Below, in pieces: positions 1-13,833 of a stretch of DNA of 13,833 nucleotides. The DNA lies in assembly GCA_018667205.1 (NCBI GenBank), contig JABIVN010000098.1:1-13833 (forward strand), written 5' to 3'. Positions within the stretch are counted from its first letter, which is position 1, and each line of letters begins with the position of its first letter. Position numbers and translations under genes: made by a program. The notes beneath the pieces were generated by a model. The model did no database searches. It was not told where the DNA came from and was given only the letters and a program-made list of their open reading frames with translations. This DNA comes from Gammaproteobacteria bacterium (GTDB taxonomy: Bacteria; Pseudomonadota; Gammaproteobacteria; Pseudomonadales; Azotimanducaceae).

Positions 1-1325
1 AATTTCACCAACGTCAACTGGTAGTCAGCGACGGTTTTTCCAAAAACCTTTCTATCCTGCGCGTAATTTAACCCCGTTTCAAACGCAGCCTGCATCACGC
101 CGCAGGCTCTGGCGGCAGTCTGGATACGACCACCCGTGAAGCCCCGCATCGTGAAATAGAAGCCCTTACCTAAGCCTTTTTCTTCGCCGATCATATGCGT
201 AGCGGGCACAAAAAAATTATCAAAGAAAAGGTTAAAGGAATGCATACCCCGGTATCCCAGCGTCGGAATGGAACTGCCTGACAGCTTGCCTCCAGCGTCT
301 TGCGAAACCTCAAACGATTCACCGTCATATTCGGGCTTTTCAACCATGAAAAGGCTTAAGCCACGATGCCCTGCAGAGAGATCTGGGTCAGTCCTTGCAA
401 GGGTAAGCAGCACGCCGGATTTACCCGCAAATGTGCTCCAGGCCTTCGCGCCATTTAATACCCAACCACCATCGACCTGGGTTGCTTTGAGTTTCATAGA
501 CGCGACATCCGAACCATAGTCTGGCTCGGTAATAGCAATGGCACAAAGCGGCCGCCCTTCGGCAATTTTTGGCAACCAATGCTGCTTCTGTTCTTCTGTT
601 CCCCCTTCAATCAAGGCTCTCGCCATAATCTCAGGACGGGTGATAAGGCTGCCTGCCCCACCTAATGATCCTCTTGAAAGCTCTTCGGTCACGACGATCA
701 TCCCCAGGTTGTCTTCCTGGTCGTCTGGCAACAGACCTCCGTATCTTTGGGGAACACTAAGGCCAAAGCAGCCCAACTCCCTGACGCCATCCAGGATCTC
801 GTCGGGGATAATTGTGTTTTCCCCGTGTATCCGCGCTGCCAGCGGCTTCACAACATCTTCGGCAAACTGGCGAAAAGTATCGCCCATCAATAGCTTTTCT
901 TCGTCCAGCCCTCGATCACCAAGGTCGCCCTGGCGCTCGACAATGCGCTTACCCAGGGCTTGCAGGCCGGAAGCGGACAAGAGATCACCACAGACATCAA
1001 GGTCAATCTTTTCAAGGTCAGCACTAACCAAGCCATAATCACCCGGGAAGCGGGCAAAACGCTGCCGTATATTATGTAAGGTTTCTGCAGCAAACGTAGA
1101 CGCTAGCTGGTTTTCGATTTCACCCTTTTCATGGGCATATTCCAGGTAATTCCGCGCGCATTGGAGTTCGGCTGTACTAACTGCGAGATCAGAAGTAGCC
1201 TGCTGATGACTGTCGAGCATATCGACATTCATTTTTCCGTCACGATCACAATGCCTTCGTATGTGGGAAAGTCCGGTTGCGATACAGGCCTCGGTTTCGT
1301 CCAGCGCTGCCTTTAAATTATTCAT
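1..1325 (-). CDS. Acyl-CoA dehydrogenase, methylsuccinyl-CoA dehydrogenase-like (3' end off the window)
   Basis: About 441 residues are visible; the C-terminus lies beyond the left edge. The flavoprotein acyl-CoA dehydrogenase fold begins near residue 141. Recognisable pieces are EELSRG, the substrate/FAD segment AIAITEPDYGSD (Thr266, Glu267, Pro268), NGAKAW, LGYRGM and GGRIQTAARA (Arg400), followed by YAQDRKVFGK. The N-terminal 140 residues are an extra, probably helical, domain that ordinary short-chain acyl-CoA dehydrogenases lack. Methylsuccinyl-CoA dehydrogenase (Mcd) of the ethylmalonyl-CoA pathway has such an extension, and the GRIQTAARA block also resembles Mcd. Expected reaction: FAD-dependent alpha,beta-desaturation of an acyl-CoA in the cytoplasm. 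The ATG shares one base with the TAA of the upstream lyase gene (TAATG), so the two are probably co-transcribed and translationally coupled. The family is clear; the Mcd assignment is an inference, since many acyl-CoA dehydrogenases look alike. Confidence 0.9.
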   Translation of the reverse strand, partial: MNNLKAALDETEACIATGLSHIRRHCDRDGKMNVDMLDSHQQATSDLAVSTAELQCARNYLEYAHEKGEIENQLASTFAAETLHNIRQRFARFPGDYGLVSADLEKIDLDVCGDLLSASGLQALGKRIVERQGDLGDRGLDEEKLLMGDTFRQFAEDVVKPLAARIHGENTIIPDEILDGVRELGCFGLSVPQRYGGLLPDDQEDNLGMIVVTEELSRGSLGGAGSLITRPEIMARALIEGGTEEQKQHWLPKIAEGRPLCAIAITEPDYGSDVASMKLKATQVDGGWVLNGAKAWSTFAGKSGVLLTLARTDPDLSAGHRGLSLFMVEKPEYDGESFEVSQDAGGKLSGSSIPTLGYRGMHSFNLFFDNFFVPATHMIGEEKGLGKGFYFTMRGFTGGRIQTAARACGVMQAAFETGLNYAQDRKVFGKTVADYQLTLVK

Positions 1326-2785
1326 TAGTCTGCCCTTAATCTGTTTTCAACTATTTTTTGGAAAGACCTGCCATGCAGTTCTTTTAATGTAATACCCGTC
1401 GCTAAAGCTTCATTCTCACTCAAAGCGCCACAACTTATACCATTGACAAAAAAGTTAAGTAGCCCCTGCGCAGAGGCGGCATCATCAAATGTATTGCCCA
1501 CCATCGACGCCTGCGCTGCCTGTTCAATAAAGGTGCTTAAACGTGCCTTGGCATCTTCAAGCCCCTCCAGAAAAAAATAATAAAACGCTGCATACCGAAT
1601 GGGCAGCTGCGCGGGGTTCAGATCCCATCCCTGGTAAAACCCGAGACGCAGGCTATGAAGAATGTTTTTAAAATGTTCGCGCCATGCTCGTTGGACAACT
1701 TCAACGTTTTCAGTTTTCTGCTTATCAGTAAGGTCTGCCCCTTTGTTAGGCGGGATTGGCATGATGTTGGTAATGCCGTCACAGATACTAACAGCTGTGC
1801 CGGTCAAGCTGACCTGCATCATCTGTCTGGCGAAATCTGCTGAGGGGTGTCGATGATTCTGATGGTGCGAAGCGATGTTGCAACTGGCGGTATAATCAAA
1901 GGTTCCAAGAATCGCAGAAGTAACCCGCCCCTTCCCTGCATCAATAAGCGCCGGTATACCATTAACGCCCTCCAGGGTAATAATTGACTGGATTGTTTCG
2001 ATCATCAGTTCAATCTTGATGTGTCCCACAGGAAATGCGCATCGCCCTTCGAGTAGCTCCACGCAGGTTAAGAGAGCACTGACCTGTTCCGGGCTGGTGA
2101 CTTTAGGTAGAGTGATAAAGAATGGGTCCGGTAGTACAGCACCCTGTTCTGCAAATGTAGACAAGAAAAGATCAAGCGTCCGAATAGACCTTCGCTTGGT
2201 CTCTTCTGTTAACGACTTTATGCGGATACCTATGAATGGCGGCAATAGTCTATTTTTGACCCCTTCAGCAAGCTCCTCCGCGGCAGAAATCGCATGTCCA
2301 TCTTCCTCTTCATCTGCTCGAGCCCTGTACCCATCCTCAAAGTCCAGCCGCTGATCTTCGATGGCCTCCGTCGCCAACTTATGTGTGACACGTTGATATA
2401 CGGTCGCCAAAATCCCTTCAGGTGTATGGTTAACCTGCCCTTTAAGTGCAGCAGCGAGCGCATCAATGGCTTCTTCCTTTAATGGCAGGGACCCAGCTCC
2501 AGGTAATTCCAGCGCTCGGGCAAACTCGGCGAAATTGGGCGCATAGGCTTTTAGATGCTTCAAGGCCAAACCGCCAAGCTTGTTTGGTGTTTCCTTTTTG
2601 AACAGGTGCGCACCGCCATACAAAGTATGTATTGGTAACCGATCCGGCCTAATCCCCGGGTAGCGCTCACTGAATGCCTTATTAGCAACCTCAAGATTGC
2701 CGTAAACGACCGCGAGGTCTGATTCCTTCAAGCGGGTTTTCAAGTCTGATTTACCAAATTTTTCAAACCGGGAATAGTAAACCAA
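1325..2785 (-). CDS. HpcH/HpaI aldolase/citrate lyase family protein (DUF6986-like)
   Basis: A protein of 486 residues if translation starts at the TTG at 2785. It resembles the DUF6986 branch of the CitE/HpcH TIM-barrel lyases: PIHTLYGGAHLF (residues 51-62), a LATEAIEDQRLDFEDGY block (137-153), GIRIKSL (186-192), IELMIET (258-264) and GTFDYTASC (294-302). In CitE-like enzymes acidic residues in the last two blocks bind Mg2+ and the arginine contacts the CoA ester or carboxylate. The family makes or breaks C-C bonds in beta-hydroxyacyl-CoA or 2-oxo acid substrates; the substrate of this branch is not known to me. It precedes the dehydrogenase gene with a TAATG overlap. The start is uncertain: no ATG exists in the N-terminal region, the frame stays open to about 2860, TTG at 2785 lacks a Shine-Dalgarno match, and TTG at 2743 is an alternative closer to the usual family start. 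Confidence 0.85.
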   Translation of the reverse strand: MVYYSRFEKFGKSDLKTRLKESDLAVVYGNLEVANKAFSERYPGIRPDRLPIHTLYGGAHLFKKETPNKLGGLALKHLKAYAPNFAEFARALELPGAGSLPLKEEAIDALAAALKGQVNHTPEGILATVYQRVTHKLATEAIEDQRLDFEDGYRARADEEEDGHAISAAEELAEGVKNRLLPPFIGIRIKSLTEETKRRSIRTLDLFLSTFAEQGAVLPDPFFITLPKVTSPEQVSALLTCVELLEGRCAFPVGHIKIELMIETIQSIITLEGVNGIPALIDAGKGRVTSAILGTFDYTASCNIASHHQNHRHPSADFARQMMQVSLTGTAVSICDGITNIMPIPPNKGADLTDKQKTENVEVVQRAWREHFKNILHSLRLGFYQGWDLNPAQLPIRYAAFYYFFLEGLEDAKARLSTFIEQAAQASMVGNTFDDAASAQGLLNFFVNGISCGALSENEALATGITLKELHGRSFQKIVENRLRAD

Positions 2786-2800
2786 TTTTGACCAAAATTG
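2783..2800. promoter_or_regulatory. Inverted repeat, candidate operator
   Basis: CAATTTTG and CAAAATTG form a perfect 8-bp inverted repeat separated by AC, giving an 18-bp dyad. It overlaps the TTG start candidate of the lyase gene and the weak -10 region of a possible minus-strand promoter, where a repressor would act. It also lies about 80 bp upstream of hemF. The symmetry is directly visible; a regulatory role is inferred and no cognate regulator is identified. Confidence 0.45.
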
Positions 2801-2823
2801 TGGCGTTTCGCGACTAATGTCAA
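2795..2823 (-). promoter_or_regulatory. Possible sigma70 promoter of the lyase/dehydrogenase pair
   Basis: On the minus strand a perfect TTGACA -35 box occupies 2823-2818. It is followed by a 17-base spacer and CAATTT at 2800-2795 as a poor -10 box. Predicted initiation near 2788 would place the TTG at 2785 almost at the transcript's 5' end, implying near-leaderless translation or a downstream start. The weak -10 keeps confidence low. Confidence 0.3.
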
Positions 2824-2879
2824 TGTAATTGATATTGGAATTAGGTACAGTTGGCAGCCTCTAAAAACGGTGACAAGTC

Positions 2880-3791
2880 GTGACAACAGCTCCTTCAATC
2901 CAGGCCGTAAAGGATTACTTTCTAAACCTGCAGGCATCCATCTGCAAGACGTTGGAAGAAATCGATGGTGATGCAATATTCAGCGTCGAGAACATCGAAA
3001 CCAATGGTGGTGGTCTATCCCGGCCAAGGGTCATCGACAATGGCCCTCACATTGAGCGAGGCGCCGTTCAGTTTACTCACTCAGTCGGAGATTCTCTGCC
3101 GCCAGCCGCTAGTGGCAGAAACCCGCACTTGGCAGGTCGAGGTTTTCAGGCTGCCGCTATTTCAATGATCATGCACCCACGAAACCCCTACGCGCCAACT
3201 TTTCATGCGAATCTTCGGTTTTTCCTGATCGATAATGAACATTGGCATTTTGGCGGAGGTTTTGACCTGACGCCCTACTACCCGTTTGCTGAGGATGTCT
3301 TGCATTGGCACAGGGTCGCTGAAAGCGCCTGCGCGCCGTTCAGTCCCGACCTGTATAGCCGGTTAAAAAAATGGTGTGATGAATACTTTTACTTGAGCCA
3401 CCGACAGGAACCCCGAGGGGTTGGCGGCTTGTTCTTCGACGACTGGCGCGAGGGTGGATTTGAAGCAAGTTTCGACCTAACTCGAAGTATAGGGGATCGC
3501 ATCCTGGACGCTTATGTCCCAATACTTGAACGCAGGAAAGACACTGCCTACGGCGAACGGGAAACTGAATTTCAATTATACAGGCGCGGCCGCTACGCAG
3601 AGTTTAACCTTGCGATTGATCGTGGGACACGTTACGGAATACAGTCAGGCAGAAGAATTGAGTCGGTGTTGGCCAGCATGCCACCTCGGGCAATTTGGAA
3701 GTATAACTGGCAGCCCGAAGCGGGCTCCCCTGAAGCGGTTCTCTACGACGAGTATCTAAAATCTCGCGACTGGTTATCTGAATTAGCCTAA
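2880..3791 (+). CDS. hemF: Oxygen-dependent coproporphyrinogen III oxidase
   Basis: HemF oxidatively decarboxylates two propionates of coproporphyrinogen III to give protoporphyrinogen IX, using O2, in the cytoplasm; it is a late step of haem synthesis. The 303-residue length is close to E. coli HemF (299) and similarity spans the whole protein. Visible signatures are the NGGGLSR loop (42-48), HPRNPYAPTFHAN (99-111), WHFGGGFDLTPYY (122-134), LHWHR (141-145), KKWCDEYFYLSHR (163-175), RGVGGLFFDD (179-188) and FQLYRRGRYAEFNL (231-244). His99, His109, His144 and His174 match the conserved histidines proposed to bind metal in the family. The start is GTG with only a weak upstream ribosome site. 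It is divergent from the lyase gene and 33 bases upstream of the aminotransferase, so it likely leads a three-gene transcript. A phenylalanine replaces the usual Ser in PTSHAN. Confidence 0.97.
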   Translation: MTTAPSIQAVKDYFLNLQASICKTLEEIDGDAIFSVENIETNGGGLSRPRVIDNGPHIERGAVQFTHSVGDSLPPAASGRNPHLAGRGFQAAAISMIMHPRNPYAPTFHANLRFFLIDNEHWHFGGGFDLTPYYPFAEDVLHWHRVAESACAPFSPDLYSRLKKWCDEYFYLSHRQEPRGVGGLFFDDWREGGFEASFDLTRSIGDRILDAYVPILERRKDTAYGERETEFQLYRRGRYAEFNLAIDRGTRYGIQSGRRIESVLASMPPRAIWKYNWQPEAGSPEAVLYDEYLKSRDWLSELA

Positions 3792-3824
3792 GATACGGAG
3801 TGTCTACCTGGAAAAAATTGTTGC

Positions 3825-4976
3825 ATGAAAATCGTTTCAAAGCTGCCTGAAGTCGGCACCACCATATTCAGCATCATGTCCAGCATGGCGGCACAATACG
3901 ATGCGATAAATCTCTCCCAGGGTTACCCTGATTTTGATGTCCCATCTGAACTGGCTGAACGCCTGAACCATTACACTGTTTCAGGCTATAACCAGTATCC
4001 TCCAATGCATGGCGTTGCCTATTTACGAGAGCAGATTGCAAGGAAAGTGAATGAGCTTTACGCGGTCTCAGCGAATGTAGATTCAGAAATCACCATCACT
4101 TCCGGCGCCACTGAGGCGCTCTTTGTGGCGATTCAAACCTTGGTTGGCAATGGCGATGAAGTGATTGTGTTCGATCCTGCTTTCGACAGTTACGACCCAG
4201 CGATTAGACTCGCCGGTGGTAAAACAATCCATATTCCGTTGTCGGGTAACAGCTTCAGCATCGACTGGGAGCGAGTCCGCGAAAGCATTACCCCGCGAAC
4301 TAAAGCCATCATCATAAATTCGCCACATAACCCAACTGGGTCCGTGATCTCGAGAGTAGATTTGGACCAGCTAGCCGAACTGGCGTCTAACAATGATCTT
4401 GTCGTTATTTCGGACGAAGTTTATGAACATATGGTGTTTGATGGCCAACAACACAACACCGTCGCAGCGCACCCGGGTCTTCGTGACCGATCGTTTGTCA
4501 TTTCGTCTTTTGGTAAAACCTATCATGCCACTGGCTGGAAGGTGGGTTACTGCATCGCCGCACCAGCGCTGACCATCGAATTTAGAAAAATTCATCAATT
4601 CGTGACATTTACGACCCACACGCCAACGCAGTGGGCGATTGCCGATTACATGGATCACCACCCCGAGCATCACCGGGGTCTTCCTGCTTTTTACCAGGAA
4701 AAACGAGACCTGTTTTCCCAGGCGCTTAAAGAGATTGGTTTTGGCCTTGTGCCAAGCCGTGGAACCTATTTTCAGGTGGTCACCTACGATGCGCTTTCCG
4801 ACCTTCCCGATATCGAGTTTGTAAAAGTGTTAACTCAAAAAGTGGGCGTCGCAGCGATACCCGTCTCAGTGTTTTGTGACGCTCCGGCGGAACTCAGTTT
4901 GGTAAGGTTTTGTTTCGCGAAGAAAAACGACACCCTTTTGGAAGCTGCCCATCGCCTCGAAAGCCATTTCTCATGA
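3825..4976 (+). CDS. ybdL: Methionine/glutamine-type aminotransferase (YbdL-like, PLP-dependent)
   Basis: A class I/II fold-type I aminotransferase of 383 residues. It shows the substrate loop INLSQGYPDFDVP (28-40), SGATEAL (93-99), NSPHNPTG (165-172), SDEVYEHMVFDG (196-207), the PLP lysine in SSFGKTYHATGWKVGY (Lys231) and the carboxylate-binding arginine in LVRFCFAKK (Arg361). The SQGFPDF-type start and the HATGWKVGY block are typical of the YbdL / kynurenine-glutamine aminotransferase group, which transaminates methionine and aromatic amino acids with 2-oxo acids. Its TGA stop overlaps the ATG of the omega-amidase gene by four bases (ATGA). That partner strongly suggests a glutamine transaminase-omega-amidase cycle that regenerates methionine from 4-methylthio-2-oxobutanoate. 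The exact substrate range is inferred from family and context. Confidence 0.92.
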   Translation: MKIVSKLPEVGTTIFSIMSSMAAQYDAINLSQGYPDFDVPSELAERLNHYTVSGYNQYPPMHGVAYLREQIARKVNELYAVSANVDSEITITSGATEALFVAIQTLVGNGDEVIVFDPAFDSYDPAIRLAGGKTIHIPLSGNSFSIDWERVRESITPRTKAIIINSPHNPTGSVISRVDLDQLAELASNNDLVVISDEVYEHMVFDGQQHNTVAAHPGLRDRSFVISSFGKTYHATGWKVGYCIAAPALTIEFRKIHQFVTFTTHTPTQWAIADYMDHHPEHHRGLPAFYQEKRDLFSQALKEIGFGLVPSRGTYFQVVTYDALSDLPDIEFVKVLTQKVGVAAIPVSVFCDAPAELSLVRFCFAKKNDTLLEAAHRLESHFS

Positions 4977-5737
4977 CCGACTTCCATCTGATACAGAGTG
5001 ATCTGACCTGGGAGGACATCGACGTAAACCTTAAGCATCTGGAACGGCAGATCAGTAGTATCCATTCAGGTGCCATTATACTGCCTGAAATGTTCTCCAC
5101 AGGGTTCTCCATGAACTCAGCGAAACTGGCGGAAAGCATGATGGGGAAAACCGTGACCTGGTTAAAGGAGCAGGCAAGGCTTAAACAGGTTTACATCTGT
5201 GGAAGTATTATCATCGAAGAAAATGGCCGTTATTTTAACCGGTTTCTCTGGGTGTCTCCTAACGGCGTGGTGACCGCTTATGACAAACGCCATCTGTTCA
5301 GAATGGCCGGCGAACATAACCACTATTCCGCAGGTTCAGACCGGGTGCAGCTACGTATCAATGATATACAGTTACGACCACAGGTTTGTTACGATCTTAG
5401 ATTCCCCGCATGGAGCAGAAACACTACCGGCTATGATGTCTTGTTGTATGTCGCAAATTGGCCAGCCGCCAGGCGGGCGCATTGGATGACTCTGCTCCAG
5501 GCGCGCGCAATTGAAAACCTGGCCTATGTCATTGCGGTAAACAGGGTGGGCAAAGACGGTAACGAGCTAGTCTATGCAGGCGACTCGTGCGTCATTGATC
5601 CGTGGGGTAATTATTTGCTCAAGATGGATGCCGAGGAAGGAATAGGTTCCGTAAAGTTGGACCTGGGTTCGTTGCGAGAGTATCGCGAAGCTTTTCCTGC
5701 ACATCTCGATGCAGATGTTCTGGAGATCAAAACTTAA
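4973..5737 (+). CDS. yafV: Omega-amidase of the nitrilase (CN-hydrolase) superfamily, YafV-like
   Basis: A 254-residue protein with the nitrilase catalytic triad in order: Glu39 in ILPEMFSTGF, Lys105 in YDKRHLF, and Cys139 in PQVCYDLRFP. The MFSTGFSMN segment and the RHLFRMAGEH block are characteristic of YafV/Nit2 omega-amidases, which hydrolyse 2-oxoglutaramate (or 2-oxosuccinamate) to 2-oxoglutarate and ammonia. This pulls glutamine-dependent transamination forward and fits the overlapping aminotransferase gene just upstream. I start at the ATG at 4973 because it forms an ATGA overlap with the upstream stop and gives the family N-terminus; the frame is open further upstream to 4910, but that would add 21 unrelated residues read out of frame from the aminotransferase gene. 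No strong intrinsic terminator follows. Confidence 0.95.
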   Translation: MTDFHLIQSDLTWEDIDVNLKHLERQISSIHSGAIILPEMFSTGFSMNSAKLAESMMGKTVTWLKEQARLKQVYICGSIIIEENGRYFNRFLWVSPNGVVTAYDKRHLFRMAGEHNHYSAGSDRVQLRINDIQLRPQVCYDLRFPAWSRNTTGYDVLLYVANWPAARRAHWMTLLQARAIENLAYVIAVNRVGKDGNELVYAGDSCVIDPWGNYLLKMDAEEGIGSVKLDLGSLREYREAFPAHLDADVLEIKT

Positions 5738-5808
5738 GCAAGACCTTAAAGCTCGCCCTCGCGCGCAGTAAAGCTACGTGCAAGCAAACATAGAAGGCTC
5801 TTTTTTAC

Positions 5809-5838
5809 CTTAGGTTCTTCTAGCTTAGGTTCTTTTAC
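5809..5838. repeat. 15-bp tandem repeat, two copies
   Basis: CTTAGGTTCTTCTAG is followed directly by CTTAGGTTCTTTTAC, differing at the two variable 3' positions. The core GCTTAGGTTCT recurs once more at 6181-6191, just before the MraY-like start codon. Only the sequence identity is observed; no function is known. Confidence 0.7.
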
Positions 5839-5886
5839 CGATTCTGGATCACGCATATAGCCGACGCACACGCTTATTAGCGCTGG

Positions 5887-5938
5887 TCGAGGACATAATG
5901 TGAGGACATAGTGTGAGCACATAGTGTGAGCAGACAGT
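5887..5938. repeat. 13-bp tandem repeat, four degenerate copies
   Basis: Four adjacent 13-base units are present: TCGAGGACATAAT, GTGAGGACATAGT, GTGAGCACATAGT and GTGAGCAGACAGT. They drift progressively from left to right, as in a slippage-generated minisatellite. The unit is not a multiple of three, which argues against a coding repeat. Direct repeats without spacers rule out a CRISPR array. Confidence 0.8.
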
Positions 5939-6142
5939 GCCAGAACTGTCAGGGATATCACCTTAGATGCAGCACCACGTCGCTTGGCCGCTTCTAGAGA
6001 CAGGATTACATCATCAGCAATGCCGACGCTGAGCGTCGAAAACGAGCTATTTGATCGGCTTATAGAGGCCAAGTGTGTTGGGTTAAGCCATTAATGGCAT
6101 CTTTCGGACGACATTTCTCCTATAATCTCCAGCAAGCATTCA

Positions 6143-6170
6143 TTGTTCTGGCCACATTAGCGCCTATACT
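6143..6170 (+). promoter_or_regulatory. Candidate sigma70 promoter for the MraY-like gene
   Basis: TTGTTC (6143-6148) and TATACT (6165-6170) are separated by 16 bases and would start transcription about 20 bases before the GTG at 6198. A second perfect TATAAT lies at 6121-6126 but lacks a good -35 box. Confidence 0.45.
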
Positions 6171-6197
6171 CACTCACTTTGCTTAGGTTCTATCGCT

Positions 6198-7247
6198 GTG
6201 CTCTACAACCTCGGACAATACCTCGCGGACTTTGCCGGTCCATTCCGGCTTCTTGTTTCGTACATCTTCCTTGCTGGACTTGGTACTGCGCTGGGTGCTT
6301 TTCTGACCTGGTGGCTACTGCCGCGCTACTGGCACCTCCTACCGCGTGACAAGGGTCGTGAATATGCGATAGATGCGGAAAAAAGTATCGGCAAACCCAT
6401 TTCAGCAGGACTCTTCTTCATACCGATTTTTGTGATTTTATGCATCTTGGTGGTACCTTTTGACTGGCAATTCATAGGCATTCTTGCGTGTATCACCGCG
6501 GCGATGATCGTGGGGTTTTTGGACGACCGGTCAGATGGGGGCTGGAGCGAGTACAGATTGGGTGCTATTGACCTAATCATCGCGGTTGTTGCCTCAATGG
6601 TGATCTGTGAGTTGGAGCCTTTTACGCTCTGGTTACCACTCTATAAAGATGCCATTATCCTTAGTCCCCTGTTGTTTATTCCGGGCGCAACGATCCTTAT
6701 CTGGGTCTCCATCAACGCAACCAACTGCACTGACGGCGTTGATGGCCTTTCTGCTAGTCTTTCCTGTATGGGACTAGTGTTTCTTGGCGCTATTCTTTAC
6801 GGCATCGTCGGGCACGAATTAATCGCCTCTTATCTGCTAGTACCGCACTACGAACAGGGTGCTGATTGGGCCATCATGGCATTTGTGATGATCGGATGCC
6901 TGTCAGGATACTTATGGCATAACAGTTACCCCAGTGCCGTTCTGATGGGCGATGCTGGCTCCAGGCCAATTGGCTTGTTACTTGGCGTGTTAGTGCTTGC
7001 CTGTGGCAACCCATTTCTCATTCTAGTCGTCGCATTTATGGTTTTGGTCAATGGTGCGACAGGCATACTCAAGGTTGCCCTGCTTCGATTCTTGAAGGTT
7101 GGGATTTTTGGTCAAGTTCGATATCCACTGCACGACCATGTGCGCCACAACATGGGCTGGTCTAACACCCAGGTCCTGATCAGGTTTATGCTCCTTCAAG
7201 CAGTTGGTACACCAATACTGCTAGTCTTGCTGCTAAAAGTCAGGTAA
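6198..7247 (+). CDS. MraY-like polyprenyl-phosphate sugar-phosphate transferase (MraY/WecA superfamily paralogue)
   Basis: A 349-residue, strongly hydrophobic protein with about ten predicted membrane segments. Superfamily enzymes move a sugar-1-phosphate from a UDP-sugar to undecaprenyl phosphate at the inner membrane. MraY features are visible in order: an AEKSIGKPISAG loop (60-71) in place of HFSKRGTPTMGG, GFLDD with the Mg2+ aspartates Asp109-Asp110, NATNCTDGVDGL (173-184), YEQGADW, HNSYPSAVLMGDAGS (241-255, Asp252) and a C-terminal LKVR identical to E. coli MraY. The canonical PIHHHYELKGW motif is instead PLHDHVRHNMGW (Pro310-Trp321), so one of the three histidines is an aspartate. It is not in a division/cell-wall gene cluster, so it is probably a paralogue acting on another sugar nucleotide or glycan. 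The start is GTG with a weak ribosome site. Confidence is high for the superfamily and low for the substrate. Confidence 0.88.
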   Translation: MLYNLGQYLADFAGPFRLLVSYIFLAGLGTALGAFLTWWLLPRYWHLLPRDKGREYAIDAEKSIGKPISAGLFFIPIFVILCILVVPFDWQFIGILACITAAMIVGFLDDRSDGGWSEYRLGAIDLIIAVVASMVICELEPFTLWLPLYKDAIILSPLLFIPGATILIWVSINATNCTDGVDGLSASLSCMGLVFLGAILYGIVGHELIASYLLVPHYEQGADWAIMAFVMIGCLSGYLWHNSYPSAVLMGDAGSRPIGLLLGVLVLACGNPFLILVVAFMVLVNGATGILKVALLRFLKVGIFGQVRYPLHDHVRHNMGWSNTQVLIRFMLLQAVGTPILLVLLLKVR

Positions 7248-7316
7248 TTCAGAAGGTTATTAGGCTATTTTAATTTACTTTCTCTGCACTTTCCGCGAAT
7301 ATGATAGGCTCAACAC

Positions 7317-7688
7317 ATGGACATTAACGCAAGATACATTTCCTTTAGAACCTTTCGGCGATCCGGTTTAGCCGTTGATACGCCTGTCTGGTTTGCATCC
7401 GTTGACCCTGATAGCCACTACCTATTCAGCGCCGCTGACGCCGGTAAAGTAAAACGGGTAAAGAATAGCTCCACAGCCCAAATGGCCACCTGTGACATGA
7501 GGGGAGGTAACCTTGGGCCATGGCATAAATGTCACGCCTACGTGGTTTTAGATGACGCTGAAACTAATATTGCCTATGCATTGCTTACCAGGAAGTATGG
7601 TTGGCAAATGCGACTCACGGACTTTTTCTCAAGGTTATCCGGTCGAATCGGCAAGCGTACCGTTATCCGATTAGAATCCGGCCAATAA
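7317..7688 (+). CDS. PPOX-class split-barrel flavin/F420-type protein (Rv2061-like)
   Basis: A small protein of 123 residues with the pyridoxamine-phosphate-oxidase-like split beta-barrel signature: an early YISFRTFRRSGLAVDTPVWF block (8-26), SAADAGKVKRVKNSS (38-52), ATCDMRGG (57-64) and a late ALLTRKYGWQMRL (88-100). This order matches the family named PPOX-class probable F420-dependent enzyme, Rv2061 type; relatives bind F420, FMN or haem, and many have no assigned substrate. A TAGG ribosome site lies 8 bases before the ATG. It follows the MraY-like gene by 69 bases on the same strand and may share its transcript. Whether the host makes F420 cannot be judged from this window, so the cofactor is open. 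Confidence 0.82.
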   Translation: MDINARYISFRTFRRSGLAVDTPVWFASVDPDSHYLFSAADAGKVKRVKNSSTAQMATCDMRGGNLGPWHKCHAYVVLDDAETNIAYALLTRKYGWQMRLTDFFSRLSGRIGKRTVIRLESGQ

Positions 7689-7709
7689 AACCGCAGGGGC
7701 TAAGCGCCT

Positions 7710-7761
7710 AGAGCCCCGCTGTCAGAGCCCCGCTCTCAGAGCCCCGCTCTCAGAGTCCCTA
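7710..7761. repeat. 14-bp GC-rich tandem repeat, about 3.7 copies
   Basis: Units are AGAGCCCCGCTGTC, AGAGCCCCGCTCTC and AGAGCCCCGCTCTC, then a partial AGAGTCCCTA. The preceding AGGGGCT at 7695-7701 can pair with the AGCCCC of any unit, so alternative hairpins are possible just after the stop codon at 7688. It may serve as a transcript end, but there is no T-run. Copy number is likely to vary between strains. Confidence 0.8.
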
Positions 7762-7870
7762 TTAAACCTGTCACCGATCACGCGTCATTTAATCCCACCG
7801 CTGGGTTTTGTACCTTAGTTAGCATAAAACCGCGCAAGTGCGCGCCGCAAAAGATTCAGGGTGCCAGGTT

Positions 7871-7891
7871 CTAGCAAGCTTATCTTGCTAG
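7871..7891. other. Perfect 8-bp hairpin, possible part of a small RNA
   Basis: CTAGCAAG and CTTGCTAG pair perfectly around a CTTAT loop. It is not followed by T residues, so it is not itself a terminator, but a terminator-like hairpin lies 33 bases downstream. Together they could form a short structured RNA or leader; this is inference only. Confidence 0.35.
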
Positions 7892-7923
7892 ACAAGCGTA
7901 CCCGTTAACCTTCAGGGGTGATC

Positions 7924-7944
7924 AAAGAAGCTCGAGGCTTTTTT
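7924..7944 (+). terminator. Terminator-like hairpin with T-run
   Basis: AAAGAAGC and GCTTTTTT can pair (seven A-T/G-C pairs and one G-T) around the loop TCGAG, ending in six T. The stem is AT-rich and weak. It would end any plus-strand transcript coming from 7689-7923, about 100 bases before the phosphatase gene. Confidence 0.4.
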
Positions 7945-8045
7945 GTCGGCAGGAACGCAAATAGAGGTTGCTGCGTAAGGCGTCACTATCGAACACTGGG
8001 AAATCTCTATAAAGTATCGCCATCCTTATCTTGCATTCTTAAAAC

Positions 8046-8822
8046 ATGGCGACTTATCTGATCGGCGACTTACACGGACACTATATCGAGTTCGAGCGAC
8101 TGTTAATCGGTGCAGGCCTTTGCAACAAGGACCTCACATGGAGTGGTGGAGGTGACCACCTTTGGTTGATGGGCGACTTCTTTGACAGAGGCGCTTCCGG
8201 CATTAAATGCCTCGAACTCACCATGCGCTTGCAGCAAGAGGCACAAGCTGACGGCGGCGACGTTCAATCGTTACTCGGCAATCATGAGTTAATGATTCTT
8301 TGCGCTTATCAATTTAAGGAAAGAATGACTCGCAGTGGCGATAGCGTGTTTGATCAGTGGCTGAGATGGGGTGGAATCGAGGCAGACTTTGAAGGCTTTA
8401 CTGATGAACATGCTGCCTGGCTACGTAAGTTGCCCGCAATGGCCCTTGTGGGCAACGCTCTACTGATTCACGCCGATGCGCTGATATATGTCAACTATGG
8501 CATGACCATTGAGCGCGTCAATCAAGGTTTTTTCGATTTAATGGCATCGAGCGATCTAGCAGCTTGGGAAGTAGCGCTCTCCGCCTTCAGCGAACATATG
8601 GCGTTTGCATCCCTGGAACTTACTGGCCGCCAGCGCGCAGAGCAGTTGCTGTCGCTTTTCGGTGGTGAACTGTTGGTACACGGACACACCCCGATCCCAC
8701 AGGCAAGGCAGATTAACGCAGAAAATGTTGTTGAAGCCTGGCGCTACGCGGGTGATCGGTGTCTTAATGTTGATGGCGGAATTTACATGGGTAGTCCAGG
8801 CTTCGTGCACAGACTTCACTAA
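8046..8822 (+). CDS. PPP-family metallophosphatase (serine/threonine phosphatase-like)
   Basis: A 258-residue calcineurin-like phosphoesterase with the complete dinuclear metal signature: GDLHGH (7-12), GDFFDRG (43-49), GNHE (78-81), a histidine in ALLIHAD (His142), and VHGHTP (211-216), plus NVDGG near the C-terminus. The GDxHG/GDxxDRG/GNHE series belongs to the PPP superfamily, which includes bacterial protein phosphatases and ApaH diadenosine-tetraphosphate hydrolases. It is slightly shorter than ApaH and I do not see ApaH-specific sequence, so the substrate (phosphoprotein or dinucleotide) is open. There is no signal peptide, so it should be cytoplasmic. It begins with ATG without a clear ribosome site. 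Its TAA overlaps the rimJ stop on the other strand by three bases, so the two genes converge. Confidence 0.9.
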   Translation: MATYLIGDLHGHYIEFERLLIGAGLCNKDLTWSGGGDHLWLMGDFFDRGASGIKCLELTMRLQQEAQADGGDVQSLLGNHELMILCAYQFKERMTRSGDSVFDQWLRWGGIEADFEGFTDEHAAWLRKLPAMALVGNALLIHADALIYVNYGMTIERVNQGFFDLMASSDLAAWEVALSAFSEHMAFASLELTGRQRAEQLLSLFGGELLVHGHTPIPQARQINAENVVEAWRYAGDRCLNVDGGIYMGSPGFVHRLH

Positions 8823-9382
8823 GCGTCGTTAATCAGGGCAGTCAGCAGGTGATCCTCCCAGCGCCCATTAATCTTTAAATACTTTCGCGCAAGCCCTTCC
8901 TTTTCGAACCCAAGACGATTCAGTAAACCTCCGCTTCGCTCGTTATGGGGAAGGTATCCCGCCATAATTCTATGTAGGCCGAGTTCCTGGAACATATACG
9001 CATTGGTCAGCGAGAGGGCTTCAAACATGATGCCTTTGCTTTGGTGTTTCTCAGCCAGAGCATAGCCAAGCTGGCATGACTGAAAAGTACCACGGACAAT
9101 ATTGGAGTAGTTACAGACACCTAGTACTTCATCTTCGTTTGGTGACAACACCACGAAACAGGCGCTCGTGCCCTCCCTGAAGTCTCTTAGTGTCAGCCTG
9201 AGTTGAACTTGCCAAAAACCTTCGGTGAAAAAAACAGGCTGTCGCAGCGGTTCCCACTGCTCGAGATGAGCACGGTTTTCAACCCGAAAGCGCACCATAA
9301 GGTCTGTTTCATGCGGTTCGAGGAGCCTCACATGAAGCCTGTCAGTGCAAAGCCTGGGAAGCCTTTGTCTGTTCAACCTCAT
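8819..9382 (-). CDS. rimJ: Ribosomal protein S5 alanine N-acetyltransferase
   Basis: A 187-residue GNAT-fold acetyltransferase with near full-length resemblance to E. coli RimJ, which acetylates the N-terminal alanine of ribosomal protein S5 using acetyl-CoA. Matching pieces are the N-terminal LCTDRLHVRLL, the ENRAHLEQWEPLR block (35-47), LGVCNYSNIVRGTFQSCQLGY (87-107), the acetyl-CoA loop with KHQSKGIMFEAL (112-123), and HRIMAGYLPHNERSGGLLNRLGFEKEG (137-163). The ATG overlaps the TGA of the upstream cupin gene (ATGA), placing rimJ last in the minus-strand run. The C-terminus is a few residues shorter than in E. coli. Confidence 0.95.
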   Translation of the reverse strand: MRLNRQRLPRLCTDRLHVRLLEPHETDLMVRFRVENRAHLEQWEPLRQPVFFTEGFWQVQLRLTLRDFREGTSACFVVLSPNEDEVLGVCNYSNIVRGTFQSCQLGYALAEKHQSKGIMFEALSLTNAYMFQELGLHRIMAGYLPHNERSGGLLNRLGFEKEGLARKYLKINGRWEDHLLTALINDA

Positions 9383-10032
9383 GGGTGGCTAGACAACTGA
9401 ATTACCGCACCAAACTTAAGGTAGAGCGAACAGCCCTGGCTTATTATTCTGACGCTATCCCCATCCGGAAATCTAAACCAGTCATACTGGCCCAGGTCAG
9501 CACCATTAACCTTGACGTTTCCTGCCAGCACAAAGCCTTCACAACCACCTTCACATTTTCTGGTTATTACCTGCCCTTCGTCGAGTTGCGCGACAATGGT
9601 TTTTTCAATCACATTGCTGTGTAGCATTTTGGCGTTTACGCCATCGATTTCTGCGGTCTTAAGAGAATCCAACGCGAGCCTTACCGGTTGTAAATCAGGA
9701 TACTGCCTGAGCTTCACCAGCAACCGGCAGCCTGCTTTTGAATATGGTGCGTGAGTAAAACCCTCGGGGTTAAGCAAATAGGAGCCTTTTGGCCAATCGC
9801 CTGTTTCGTCGCTGAAAATGCCTTTGAGTACTAATATTTCTTCACCGCCCGGATGAGCGTGAGCCGGAAAGCTTGCGCCGGGATTATATTGGACTAACGA
9901 TGTCACCTGCCCGGTTTCCGCTTCACCAACCAGATGAAACCGCTTGCGGCTAACCGTGGCAGAGGGTGAGGTTTGCCAATCCATCGTGCCCGCGTAAACC
10001 ACCGCGGCGATCGACATATTTGAATTCAACAT
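9379..10032 (-). CDS. ChrR-like cupin protein with two cupin domains
   Basis: A 217-residue protein resembling the cupin domain of the zinc anti-sigma factor ChrR. The first cupin (about 30-111) has the motif FPAHAHPGGEEILVLKG with His58, His60 and Glu64, the distal HAPYS histidine (His94) and a closing LLVKLRQY. A second, degenerate cupin (about 120-215) lacks the His-rich motif. There is no N-terminal zinc-binding anti-sigma helix domain, and no ECF sigma gene sits beside it, so it is more likely a stand-alone metal-binding cupin than a true anti-sigma factor. The ATG at 10032 has a TTAGG site upstream; ATG at 10017 is an alternative. It starts 8 bases after the SDR stop and ends overlapping rimJ. 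Confidence 0.85.
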   Translation of the reverse strand: MLNSNMSIAAVVYAGTMDWQTSPSATVSRKRFHLVGEAETGQVTSLVQYNPGASFPAHAHPGGEEILVLKGIFSDETGDWPKGSYLLNPEGFTHAPYSKAGCRLLVKLRQYPDLQPVRLALDSLKTAEIDGVNAKMLHSNVIEKTIVAQLDEGQVITRKCEGGCEGFVLAGNVKVNGADLGQYDWFRFPDGDSVRIISQGCSLYLKFGAVIQLSSHP

Positions 10033-10040
10033 TCGAAAGC

Positions 10041-10877
10041 CTAATCCAAGCCAAGTTTGTGGCGAATGGACAGCAGGTCCTCGAACGTGACGTCAGGGCC
10101 AAGGTCGACGGCTTCACCAACGTCCAAACGAATTCGAGAGAAGCGTCCATCTGCGGCCTGAAGAATAACGCCTTGGGGGGCTTGTTCTGAACAGAGGTAC
10201 AACACAGCGGGGCTTACCTGCTCTGGTCGACCTCGGCGGCTAGTGTCGTGCAGACTTTCCGTCATTCTAGTGATCGCACCGGGCGCTAGCGTGTTTACCT
10301 TGATGCCTTTGCTCGCACCTTCCAGTGCCAATACGTTCATTAGCCCGATCAAGCCCATCTTTGCCGACGCATAGTTGGATTGACCAAAGTGACCGAATAT
10401 TCCTGACCCTGAACTGGTAAAAACAACTCTTCCCCAATTGTTTTCGCGCATGATCGGCCAAGCTGCTTTCGTGACCAATACGGAGCCCATAAGGTGCACG
10501 TCCAACACTTCCCTGAAGTTTTCAATCGTTACATTGGTGAAGGTCTTGTCGCGCAGAATACCGGCATTGTTCACCAGAATATCGACACGACCGCAGTTCT
10601 TCACCGCGGTATGGATTATTGCCGCGGCGCCTTCCGGCGTTGTCACCGAATCAGTGTTAGCGTAGGCCTCGCCGCCGAATTTCCTGATTTCATCAACGAC
10701 GGTCTGGGCGGTTGTTCCACTGCCTGTTCCATCAACAGCGCCCCCTAGGTCATTGACAATAACGCGCGCGCCACGCCGGGCGAACTCGATGGCATGAGAA
10801 CGCCCAAGCCCTCGCCCTGCCCCTGTCACGACCACGACCTTCGATGCGAACGAAGTGTCACTGATGGAAGTACTCAT
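10041..10877 (-). CDS. Short-chain dehydrogenase/reductase, peroxisomal MFE-2-like (3-hydroxyacyl-CoA dehydrogenase type)
   Basis: A 278-residue classical SDR. It has the Rossmann cofactor motif TGAGRGLG (18-25), the VNDLGGAVDGTGSG segment (41-54), NNAGILRD (103-110), the active-site serines in TSSGSGIFGHFGQ (154-166) and the catalytic YASAK (Tyr169, Lys173). The NDLGG, NNAGILRDKTF and FGQxNYASAK blocks are typical of the dehydrogenase domain of multifunctional enzyme type 2 (HSD17B4), which oxidises 3-hydroxyacyl-CoAs with NAD+. In bacteria such single-domain relatives often serve lipid, steroid or branched-acid degradation. A GAGG ribosome site lies just before the ATG. It is the third gene of the minus-strand run, 71 bases after the VOC gene, so it could also have its own promoter. 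The substrate is inferred only. Confidence 0.92.
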   Translation of the reverse strand: MSTSISDTSFASKVVVVTGAGRGLGRSHAIEFARRGARVIVNDLGGAVDGTGSGTTAQTVVDEIRKFGGEAYANTDSVTTPEGAAAIIHTAVKNCGRVDILVNNAGILRDKTFTNVTIENFREVLDVHLMGSVLVTKAAWPIMRENNWGRVVFTSSGSGIFGHFGQSNYASAKMGLIGLMNVLALEGASKGIKVNTLAPGAITRMTESLHDTSRRGRPEQVSPAVLYLCSEQAPQGVILQAADGRFSRIRLDVGEAVDLGPDVTFEDLLSIRHKLGLD

Positions 10878-10948
10878 GCTGCCTCATTATTAGTATTTTT
10901 GGAGGTACGACGGCAAGAGTAGCGGTTTCACTCGGCCGAAACAAACTG

Positions 10949-11350
10949 CTATCTTGCAGCTTTAAGCTCGAGGGTGTTACCGTCAGGGTCAGTAACGTAA
11001 ATCGACAAGCCGTAGCCATCGGCGCCATATCGTGTTTCTACCTTGCTGCAGGGAACACCCGCAGAGACCATCAACTCAGCAATAGCTTCTGGCTCGAAAG
11101 GCGATATAGTCAGGCAAAAATGATCTAGATTCCTGGTTTCCTGAATGACATCAAAGTTCCCTGCCAATTTGCCACCAATAGGAACCAAATCTATTAACTG
11201 CCTTCCCGCACGAAGCTGGTAAAGGCCTAGATCAGGTAACTCACGCTCCATTACGCAACCAAGTAACTCTTCGTAGAATTTACGCGCCTTCGTCAGGTCT
11301 CTAACCCGTAGCACCAAATGATCGATGCCTTCGATATCGAAAGGTCTCAT
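10949..11350 (-). CDS. VOC-superfamily protein (glyoxalase/dioxygenase/bleomycin-resistance fold)
   Basis: A 133-residue single VOC module made of two beta-alpha-beta-beta-beta units. The first metal-ligand position is His11 in GIDHLVLRVRD, followed by the usual KARKFYEELLG helix. The second half opens with NLDHFCLTI (His77) and ends with VTDPDGNTLELK (Glu128), the normal His/His/Glu metal triad. Members act as dioxygenases, glyoxalases, epimerases or drug-binding proteins, so the reaction cannot be named. Its ATG overlaps the TGA of the GNAT gene upstream (ATGA), so the two are probably coupled. Confidence 0.9.
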   Translation of the reverse strand: MRPFDIEGIDHLVLRVRDLTKARKFYEELLGCVMERELPDLGLYQLRAGRQLIDLVPIGGKLAGNFDVIQETRNLDHFCLTISPFEPEAIAELMVSAGVPCSKVETRYGADGYGLSIYVTDPDGNTLELKAAR

Positions 11351-11865
11351 ATGGGTCTTGCCGCCGCTCGAACAAGAATGAGATAGGGCACATCCGTTGA
11401 GTGTTCGAAAAATTCACTTTTTATTTCAAAATCAAAATTTTCATACAGTTTCAACGCTCGCTGATTAAACTTTGCAACGGTCAAGCGAAGGAACTCCGGG
11501 CTGAGCGAATCAAGCGCAAAACCTAAAATTGCGCCAAAAAAAGCTGCCCCTTGACCCTGCCCCGTGGACGCTGGCCGCATTCCTACGCCGATATCTAAAG
11601 CTTCGTCACCATAGTCACCGCCCAGCACCTGTCCATCAGAACCAAACGAGCAAAAACCAATCATGGTCCCGCGGGCATCAATGACTGCGTGAAAATTTAA
11701 CGCTGGATTCAGGAACTGTTTGACGTAATGGTCATGATAAGCGTCGACCGATGGGTTATAAAAATCATAGGGAAACGGGTATTCCCAGCTCAGAATGTCC
11801 CTTGCCTGGTGCTCTTCCAAAGGCCTTACCCGATAGTTATCATCTGACACTGGCATACTATGCAC
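11347..11865 (-). CDS. GNAT-family N-acetyltransferase
   Basis: A protein of 172 residues from the GTG at 11865, or 169 from the ATG at 11856, which I find equally plausible since neither has a clear ribosome site. The GNAT fold is shown by the early YRVRPLEEHQARDIL strand-helix, ALDIGVGMRPASTGQGQGAAFFGAIL with the acetyl-CoA pyrophosphate loop (GQGQGA), and the late FLRLTVAKFNQRALKLYENFDF. The conserved Asn and Tyr of the last block fit the family. It resembles short RimI-like acetyltransferases of unknown substrate and differs from RimJ at the other end of this run. It appears to be the promoter-proximal gene of the five-gene minus-strand cluster and is divergent from the selenoprotein gene. 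Confidence 0.88.
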   Translation of the reverse strand: MHSMPVSDDNYRVRPLEEHQARDILSWEYPFPYDFYNPSVDAYHDHYVKQFLNPALNFHAVIDARGTMIGFCSFGSDGQVLGGDYGDEALDIGVGMRPASTGQGQGAAFFGAILGFALDSLSPEFLRLTVAKFNQRALKLYENFDFEIKSEFFEHSTDVPYLILVRAAARPI

Positions 11866-12018
11866 GCAACTTTGTTTAGTCGATAAATAATCGCGCGTTG
11901 GCGCCGTTAGTGCAAATTATGTGGTGAACTCGACTAGCTTGAATGGCGCTGTTACCACGACCGAAAACATTGTAAAAAGGCGATCGTCATCCGAACCAAA
12001 ATACTAAGCATAACGTTG

Positions 12019-12558
12019 ATGCTCATCCTCTGCTTATCTGGCAGAGATTTATGGGCTGCAGAATGGCGATGGGCAAATGATCTTCCCCTGGGTGCCCCGC
12101 TTCCCGAGTTTAGTGTTGTTGATGCCAGCAGCTCGGTTATCCCGGTTCAAAGCCTGTATGGTAAGAGAGGACTTCTGTTGTATTTCAATCGCAGTACAGA
12201 ATGGTGACCTTACTGCATCAGACAGCTCGTTGAGCTGTCAAAGCATGGCCCCGAGTTACAGGGGAAAGGCGTTAATGTCGCTGCGATTTTATATGACTCA
12301 CCTGCAACACTTAAACGCTTTTCGGAAAAATACGGGATTAGCTTTCCTGTCCTAAGTGACCCAGATTCATCGGCCATCATCCAGCTGGGGTTGCTCAACC
12401 CTAATTACGATCCATCAAGCAAATATTATGGCGTACCTTACCCTGGCGTGTTTTTGGTTGACTCAAAGGGCATCATCGTCGGCAAGTTTGCAGAACAGAG
12501 CTATCGTGATCGGCCGCTCATGGAACATCTGATTCGCGCGGTCAATGAACTCGATTGA
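12019..12558 (+). CDS. Selenocysteine-containing peroxiredoxin-like (redoxin/AhpC-TSA) protein, in-frame TGA read as Sec
   Basis: The frame runs to a TGA at 12556-12558 and is interrupted once by TGA at 12205-12207. Both sides belong to one thioredoxin-fold redoxin protein: GKRGLLLYFNRSTEW before, and PYCIRQLVELSKHGPEL, AAILYDSPATLKRFSEKYGI, FPVLSDPDS and YPGVFLVDSKGIIVGKF after. The TGA (codon 63 from the ATG at 12019) replaces the cysteine of the family W-C-P-Y-C site, giving W-Sec-P-Y-C with Cys66 as likely resolving residue and a T-x-x-Sec peroxiredoxin-type motif. A SECIS-like hairpin follows. A thiol peroxidase or disulfide reductase role is expected from the family. The start is unsettled: ATG 12019 or TTG 12016 cut into a hydrophobic segment, while an AAAAGG ribosome site at 11975-11980 precedes an ATC at 11989 that would give a full signal peptide (RTK then a hydrophobic core). 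Periplasmic location is therefore likely. The 3' end overlaps the symporter gene by 14 bases. Confidence 0.85.
12205..12239 (+). promoter_or_regulatory. Selenocysteine codon and SECIS-like hairpin
   Basis: TGA at 12205-12207 is followed after 13 bases by GACAGCTC (12221-12228), loop GTT (12229-12231) and GAGCTGTC (12232-12239), a perfect 8-bp stem. A short apical loop beginning with G, followed by U, about 20 bases after the UGA matches the bacterial SECIS consensus recognised by SelB. The stem falls in codons for QLVEL, which is conserved in cysteine relatives, so part of the symmetry could come from coding constraint. Confidence 0.75.
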
Positions 12559-13833
12559 AGCTTTGCTGATCACTTTTGGTGATCTGGCGTGGGGACCCTG
12601 GTTACTGATTTTGCTGCTGGGGGGTGGGCTTTACTTCATGTTTCTGTCGCGTTTTCTTCCCTTTCGGTATCTTTCTCATAGTCTGATGCTGCTATCTGGA
12701 AAATTCGATAATCAAGGCCCCGGAGAGATCACCCATTTTCAGGCGCTGTCCAGCGCGCTCGCGGGTACCATCGGGATGGGTAATATCGCGGGTGTTGCCG
12801 TTGCTATTACCGTAGGTGGTCCCGGCGCAGTCTTTTGGATGTGGATTACGGCAGTGCTTGGTATCACCACTAAATTTTTCACCTGCACATTAAGTGTCAT
12901 GTATCGGGGTGAAGACAGTGAGGGGAATATTCAAGGGGGCCCGATGTACGTTATTACAGAAGGCTTAGGCAAAAGGTATAGATGGCTCGCCGTGTTTTTC
13001 TGTATCGCCGGTGTTATTGGCTGCCTACCGATGTTTCAAACCAACCAGCTAGTCCAGGCGATTCGCGAATTGATCTTCATTGAGCAGGGTTGGATCAGGC
13101 AGGATCAGGTAACAGAATTCAATCTCATCGCCGGCCTCGTTCTTGCCGTTATCGTGGCAACGGTAATATTCGGGGGGCTCTCACGAATTTCCAAGGTTGT
13201 CTCGCGGCTCGTGCCCGTAATGTCGTTACTGTATGTCAGCGTCGCGTTCTACATTCTCTTGATGAATTGGACCGAAGTGCCGCATTATTTGATGCTGATC
13301 CTGACAGACGCTTTTACAGGGACGGCCGCGGCAGGTGGCGCAATTGGAACCGTCATTGCAACGGGGGTCAGAAGGGGGGCATTTTCAAACGAAGCAGGTA
13401 TCGGTACTGAAGCGATGGCACATGGCGCCGTCAGGACCAGTGAGCCTGTCAGCGAGGGCCTGGTTGCCATGCTGGGTCCCATCATAGATACCCTGGTTAT
13501 TTGCACCGCGACAGCGCTGCTGATTCTCATGACGGGCGCTTGGCAAGCCACTGACGCTAGTGGCGTTACCATCACGAGCATCGCTTTTGAAACTGCACTG
13601 CCAGGTTACGGCTCATTTCTGTTAATCGTGTGCATCTTTTTCTTCAGTATCACGACGATTTTTAGCTATTCTTATTATGGATCAAAATGCCTTAGCTTCC
13701 TGATAGGCGCCGAGAGACGTCATTATTACAACTACCTGGTTATCCTTATGACAGTCGTTGCCAGTATGCTTTCTCTGGATGCCATGGTGGGGCTTATCGA
13801 TGGCGCGTTTGCGCTGATGGCAATACCGACAAT
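12545..13833 (+). CDS. Sodium:alanine/glycine symporter, AGCS family (3' end off the window)
   Basis: About 429 residues are visible and the frame is open to the right edge. Expected role: Na+-coupled uptake of alanine, glycine or a related small amino acid across the inner membrane. AGCS signatures are clear: GGGLYFMFLSRFLPFR near the N-terminus, then ITHFQALSSALAGTIGMGNIAGVAVAI, GGPGAVFWMWITAVLG, TKFFTCTLSVMYR, QGGPMYVI and, later, RRGAFSNEAGIGTEAMAHGAVRTSEPVSEGLVAMLGPIIDT. These alternate with hydrophobic membrane segments. The ATG at 12545 lies 14 bases inside the end of the selenoprotein gene, so translation is probably coupled and the two share a transcript. The first membrane helix follows MNSIEALLITFGD directly, as in other AGCS proteins. 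Normal length is about 450-500 residues, so only a small part is missing. Confidence 0.95.
   Translation, partial: MNSIEALLITFGDLAWGPWLLILLLGGGLYFMFLSRFLPFRYLSHSLMLLSGKFDNQGPGEITHFQALSSALAGTIGMGNIAGVAVAITVGGPGAVFWMWITAVLGITTKFFTCTLSVMYRGEDSEGNIQGGPMYVITEGLGKRYRWLAVFFCIAGVIGCLPMFQTNQLVQAIRELIFIEQGWIRQDQVTEFNLIAGLVLAVIVATVIFGGLSRISKVVSRLVPVMSLLYVSVAFYILLMNWTEVPHYLMLILTDAFTGTAAAGGAIGTVIATGVRRGAFSNEAGIGTEAMAHGAVRTSEPVSEGLVAMLGPIIDTLVICTATALLILMTGAWQATDASGVTITSIAFETALPGYGSFLLIVCIFFFSITTIFSYSYYGSKCLSFLIGAERRHYYNYLVILMTVVASMLSLDAMVGLIDGAFALMAIPT

Follow-up and report, generated by a model that had tools for sequence, protein, structure and literature searches.

A Redoxin Reading Frame with One In-Frame TGA

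The stretch of DNA analyzed here (hereafter, the window) comprises the 13,833 nucleotides (nt) of contig JABIVN010000098.1, which belongs to a metagenome-assembled genome (MAG) of a gammaproteobacterium. Near its right-hand end lies a gene for a redoxin of the AhpC/TSA fold. Read on the forward strand from the ATG that a first-pass annotation had chosen to the stop TGA at 12556–12558, this open reading frame (ORF; 12019..12558) gives a product of 179 residues and holds a single internal TGA, codon 63 at 12205..12207. The gene very probably encodes a selenoprotein in which the UGA at 12205 is read as selenocysteine (Sec, U). This reading is supported by the conservation of the TGA, by the pairing of Sec with Cys among homologs, by a covarying selenocysteine insertion sequence (SECIS), by the presence of SelA, SelB and SelD and by purifying selection on both sides of the codon.

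The frame continues for 116 codons between the two TGAs without any other stop, and the residues around codon 63 read EW-U-PYC, in which U-P-Y-C has the UxxC form. The family similarity that had been claimed for the downstream part is indeed present: the read-through protein matches PF00578 with 88.7 bits (cut-off 26) over residues 25–154 and PF08534 with 60 bits, and both of these matches span the TGA. No NCBIfam model reaches its cut-off with the window protein; the ResA-type model NF002854 gives 42 bits (cut-off 170) and the SelL-related model NF040769 gives 43 bits (cut-off 120). For the other 14 members of our alignment A2, the NCBIfam comparison is expressed in E-values rather than cut-offs.

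Standard gene calling splits a selenoprotein of this kind. With the standard code and a lower limit of 60 amino acids (aa), the redoxin frame of the window yields only a 63-aa ORF (12016–12207), and to this extent the first-pass annotation was right to expect a 63-residue fragment or nothing from a gene caller. This does not hold for the relatives, which in the protein collection are mostly C-terminal fragments or calls made with translation table 4: among the 27 found there, 20 are 100–114 aa long and all 20 start downstream of the motif, while the longer P0002, P0003, and P0018 have Trp at the Sec codon, which is what gene calling with table 4 gives.

Sec and Cys at the Same Codon

The codon was read in 39 homologous rows, 27 of which have TGA and 12 TGC or TGT. 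Both the expectation that the TGA falls on the first Cys of a WCPYC motif beyond chance and the expectation that homologs would pair U with Cys are borne out by this tally. The SECIS comparison below uses the same 39 rows; duplicates (L010–L014, L076–L079, and L085), second copies that were not fetched (e.g., G063:C48 and G201:C144), other TGA redoxins (e.g., G013:C11:767556 and L034) and L104, which was not read, were left out. The gene calls that place Trp at the codon speak for a reassignment of TGA to Trp (code 4), or else for nonspecific readthrough. We regard this as extremely improbable, because the non-TGA rows all have Cys (12 of 12), 3 of 11 genes examined in the window end in TGA, as does the redoxin itself, and the genome encodes SelA, SelB, and SelD.

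Four near relatives of the same genus carry the TGA and are 71–86% identical over the whole length (loci L005–L008 and L011–L014 are the same four, from two collections); L008 is one of these and is named K189A clade, assigned by NCBI to the OMG group of Gammaproteobacteria. A protein search of 38 genomes, the window's own and those of relatives, gave 17 with a match at E < 1e-28, and in 15 of these the match holds exactly one TGA. The matches in G009 and G013 are partial and have no TGA; they were rejected as Cys forms, since the former is cut by a contig end and the latter has no motif segment. The G013 copy (L024, G013:C11:1200698) keeps the signal peptide and the C-terminal half, whereas the UxxC stretch is gone, so that it is either decayed or misassembled; its host genome has selA, selB, and selC. 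An archaeal locus (L009) was also discarded as a Sec relative, as the motif of its Prx-like (peroxiredoxin-like) product is TPGC and no TGA stands at the site.

In a wider sample of 293 genomes of the order, 28 match the A2 profile at a score of at least 170 bits, 16 of them with TGA and 12 with TGC or TGT at the codon (a second copy in G063 was not read); the residue-by-residue reading in this sample covers L076–L103. The selA gene is present in all 16 Sec-form genomes, as against 5 of the 12 Cys-form genomes and 39 of the 293 overall, an association with a hypergeometric probability of 4e-16, not corrected for kinship. A tree built from 26 Sec rows and 12 Cys rows, from which L027 was left out for its broken frame, requires at least two changes of label, with two Cys groups that each stand beside two Sec rows. 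If Sec was ancestral, this can be read as two replacements by Cys. In one of the Cys groups, selA is still found in four of the five genomes.

Both halves of the redoxin ORF are under purifying selection. The ratio of nonsynonymous to synonymous substitution rates (dN/dS) between the window and its relatives is 0.16–0.19 upstream of the TGA (46 codons, three comparisons, a fourth being saturated at synonymous sites) and 0.12–0.15 downstream of it (116 codons, four comparisons), which shows that the downstream half is translated. These ratios, all below 0.2, bear on the possibility that the gene is a pseudogene or the product of a sequencing or assembly error, the TGA then being a nonsense mutation or a miscalled TGC or TGT. 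The data do come from a MAG, and damaged copies occur in G013 (no motif segment) and in G018 (L027, frame break). Nevertheless, given that the same TGA recurs in independent assemblies, both in the MAGs of the four near relatives and in genomes further removed, and that a covarying SECIS is specific to the TGA rows, such an origin is scarcely credible. L027 itself (G018:C143:33705–34161) has the TGA and the hairpin, and its match changes frame about 90 codons on, by a frameshift or an assembly error.

The SECIS Hairpin

The bacterial SECIS hairpin, GACAGCUC-GUU-GAGCUGUC, occupies 12221..12239 of the forward strand, with its loop at 12229–12231, 21 nt after the UGA. Its apical loop is small, contains a guanosine and lies just downstream of the UGA, a combination that figures as a SECIS criterion in PMC1088965. 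When 16 aligned rows were given to RNAalifold, the same stem was found unaided, and three of its six pairs have changed on both sides. In this structure 86.7% of cells pair, as compared with 20–45% in versions slid along the alignment; 15 cells have changed on both sides versus 4.9 in shuffles, and the covariation score is 0.361 versus 0.152.

The Cys orthologs are the best control for the SECIS. All six core pairs are formed in 25 of the 27 Sec rows and in one of the 12 Cys rows, and the GU at loop columns 40–41 is distributed in the same proportions (25/27 vs. 1/12); the Fisher probability is 5e-7 for each, in rows that are related to one another. The Cys rows still keep a mean of 4.5 of the six core pairs, because the coding sequence is shared. 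The family offers paired Sec and Cys orthologs within one order, of which the former retain the SECIS and the latter have mostly lost it, a situation that is useful both for annotation and for the study of why Sec is exchanged for Cys.

Selenocysteine Machinery

The window's own genome is a MAG of 3.2 Mb in 614 contigs, 69% complete. Its selA gene (588 bits) adjoins selB (442 bits) on contig C238, and selD (263 bits) is on contig C94. SelD also serves selenouridine and is not specific on its own; SelA and SelB are specific. Of the sel genes that the first-pass annotation had proposed to look for, these three are thus present, and only selC was not found in this incomplete MAG; a complete genome devoid of sel genes, which would have spoken against a selenoprotein, is not what was encountered. 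Two weak tRNA-Sec matches proved to be tRNA-Leu and tRNA-Arg, and a search of the genome with a relative's selC returned one 24-base match (E 0.47). Nine of the 16 other genomes of the genus have a selC match over the Rfam cut-off, and ARAGORN calls tRNA-SeC(tca) in all three loci that it was given, from G005, G009, and G011. Where the two genes share a contig, in six of these nine genomes (G007, G009, G011, G012, G013, and G016), selC is about 10–24 kb from selB; because C238 is only 4.7 kb long, the absence of selC from our assembly is likely due to a gap.

The 15 genomes with a TGA match all have selA over the cut-off (23 of the 38 do so overall). In 14 of them selB also exceeds it, the exception being G014 with a match of 201 bits on a contig of 3.2 kb; tRNA-Sec does so in 13, all but G000 and G004. 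A tRNA-Sec match in G030 (49.9 bits, barely over the cut-off) was taken as false, as this genome has no selA.

Several observations weigh against the selenoprotein reading. A single-sequence fold of the hairpin region (71 nt) surpasses shuffles only moderately, with a z of −1.8 and 13 of 200 shuffles folding equally well, an Rfam scan of the window found no family, and on two of the five covariation measures the hairpin does no better than shuffles. To the missing selC must be added the patchiness of the gene: 8 of the 16 other genomes of the genus have no match below E 1e-15 (G002, G003, G006, G008, G010, G012, G015, and G016), three of which are 86–94% complete, and the copies in G013 and G018 look damaged. 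In several pairs among L005–L007, where changes are few, dN/dS is 0.3–0.65. Finally, the rows tallied are related, so the p-values overstate their independence.

Further candidate Sec redoxins were seen in these genomes. In six of nine same-genus genomes, a second AhpC/TSA gene, again with a single in-frame TGA, occurs about 0.3–1.2 kb downstream of selB and on the same strand (G001 C389, G005 C52, G009 C136, G011 C16, G013 C11, and G016 C86), as though the sel locus included a gene of the Sec peroxiredoxin-like kind. Seven of the 16 AhpC-TSA matches in G013 hold one in-frame TGA, and L034, a protein in G016, reads W-U-P-Y-C. The genus looks rich in candidate Sec redoxins.

Active Site and Likely Activity

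In the mechanism that we propose, the hairpin at 12221–12239 would recruit SelB with Sec-tRNA(Sec), and this complex would decode the UGA at 12205 as Sec. The product would be an exported protein of AhpC/TSA (thioredoxin-type) fold with a U-P-Y-C redox pair, whose U63 would attack a disulfide or a peroxide. By the chemistry presumed for UxxC proteins, C66 would then resolve U63 through a selenenylsulfide, and the enzyme would be regenerated by a thiol donor.

The active site of peroxiredoxins consists of P-x-x-x-T-x-x-C plus an Arg. Aligned to AhpE, the window protein has U63 at the position of the Thr, C66 at that of the peroxidatic Cys, R58 in place of the Pro and P142 in place of Arg116 (a number taken from the title of 4xih and our own count), so that only the Cys of the four residues is kept; across the A2 alignment neither R58 nor C66 varies, and P142 is nearly invariant. 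The earlier description of the Sec position as that of the catalytic cysteine is hence correct in the thioredoxin/ResA sense, as the first residue of UxxC, whereas by comparison with AhpE it is C66 that has the peroxidatic position. With the Pro and Arg replaced and Sec in the place of the Thr, we lean toward an activity of the thiol:disulfide oxidoreductase type rather than the classical peroxiredoxin mechanism.

A selenoprotein that works as a peroxiredoxin-type peroxidase, either with C66 as the peroxidatic residue or with U63 attacking peroxide directly, is a less probable but still tenable alternative. It has in its favor the Pfam AhpC-TSA and Redoxin matches, the best structural matches, which are Bcp4, AhpE, and other peroxiredoxins, and the alignment of C66 just mentioned; the three replacements (R58, U63, and P142) tell against it, as does the U-x-x-C spacing, which equals that of the ResA CxxC. 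Our preference for an oxidoreductase is weakened by the overall fold, which ranks nearer to peroxiredoxins than to ResA; that ResA is not among the 50 structural matches listed excludes nothing.

Relation to Known Selenoproteins

UxxC Prx-like selenoproteins were catalogued in 2005 and 2008 (PMC1088965; PMC2398784), so this kind of protein is already known, and the suggestion that the subfamily may be new was too strong. A Prx-like UXXC family of 22 sequences was described from the Sargasso Sea (PMC1088965), and Table 2 of PMC2398784 (2008) has both Prx-like 1 (PF00578, UxxC, 225 sequences) and Prx-like 3 (UxxC, 68 sequences, with a weak PF08534 match at E > 0.001). Table 1 of PMC13188914 gives a “Prx-like thiol:disulfide oxidoreductase” (PF00578, UxxC) and a “Redoxin family protein” (PF08534, UxxC), each as predicted and not experimentally verified. 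With the Prx-like thiol:disulfide oxidoreductase and Prx-like 1, the window protein has in common PF00578, UxxC, a bacterial SECIS, Cys homologs, and marine occurrence; the published family description, on which this comparison is based, does not mention, in the parts cited, the acetyltransferase and symporter neighborhood described below. PF08534 and UxxC are shared with the Redoxin family protein and Prx-like 3, but the stronger match of the window protein is to PF00578, and the 2008 table gives Prx-like 3 its PF08534 match as a weak one only. We found no paper on selenocysteine in K189A, nor any on a peroxiredoxin selenoprotein with UPYC.

ResA/TlpA-type thiol:disulfide oxidoreductases resemble the window protein in fold, in the place of the CxxC and in a likely export signal; it differs from them in having Sec for the first Cys and in its ResA score, under the cut-off. 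The Sec peroxiredoxins (TxxU) and AhpE/BCP have in common with it the AhpC/TSA fold and C66 at the peroxidatic position, but its Sec stands three residues earlier (UxxC) and the Pro, Thr, and Arg of the peroxiredoxin site are replaced. A weak similarity to SelL and SelL-related proteins (NF040769) is found in all 15 members of A2. The motif of SelL is UxxU, however, and the window protein has one Sec, in UxxC, as well as a score short of the SelL-related cut-off.

Start Codon, Likely Export and Neighboring Genes

The ATG at 12019 is probably not the start; the true one probably lies upstream, at a non-ATG codon. The 12 codons before this ATG (11983..12018, forward strand) are conserved as the peptide I-V/I-IRxxxLxxTL in the window and its four relatives, and read by eye they provide the charged start of a signal peptide. 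No ATG, GTG, or TTG occurs in L005 and L006 between the in-frame TAA and the equivalent of 12019, which, with the conserved leader, points to a non-ATG start. The candidates are the AUC/AUU codons at 11983 or 11989; a Shine-Dalgarno-like AAGG (11977–11980) precedes the ATC at 11989 by 8 nt, and the relative P0003 was called from the position of 11983. A signal peptide and export, judged by eye from this leader, are likely.

The symporter neighbor noted in the first-pass annotation is real. It is a gene for a Na+/alanine-glycine symporter (AGCS; 12545..13833, forward strand) that runs off the window and matches PF01235 with 390 bits and TIGR00835 with 403 bits. With its ATG at 12545, it shares 14 nt with the end of the redoxin ORF, an overlap present in the window, L005, L006, and L008. 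The symporter is conserved beside the redoxin in L005, L006, and L008 (89–93%) and in L015 (69%), where 50 nt separate the redoxin stop from the opening of the symporter frame and the first listed start is a GTG at 1009. Of the 34 loci examined, the remaining 29, whose flanks are mostly no longer than ~1.5 kb, showed no symporter next to the redoxin. In L007 only a remnant is left (5527–5857), with ATC in place of the ATG and most of the gene deleted; as the redoxin there is intact, this suggests that it does not need the symporter. P0002 likewise runs into a shortened symporter piece.

It is conceivable, if unlikely, that the Sec codon also acts as a selenium gate on this downstream Na+/amino-acid symporter. 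Since the genes overlap by 14 nt and no Shine-Dalgarno sequence is evident by eye at the ATG at 12545, ribosomes would reach the symporter mainly by decoding the UGA with Sec and continuing to the stop at 12558, and its synthesis would depend on the selenium supply. The remnant in L007 and the 50-nt separation in L015 argue against such a gate as a general feature. This coupling of a selenium-dependent redoxin to a symporter would be a modest new prediction; among the literature matches listed, nothing was on point for selenium coupling or for the OMG group.

On the other side of the redoxin lies a divergent GNAT acetyltransferase gene (11347..11865, reverse strand), conserved upstream in L006–L008, L016, and L018. 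The ten other genes scanned in the window (1325–11350) are ordinary and encode a DUF6986 protein, coproporphyrinogen oxidase, a class I aminotransferase, a C-N hydrolase, a glycosyltransferase 4, a metallophosphatase, a GNAT protein, a cupin, a short-chain dehydrogenase, and a glyoxalase.
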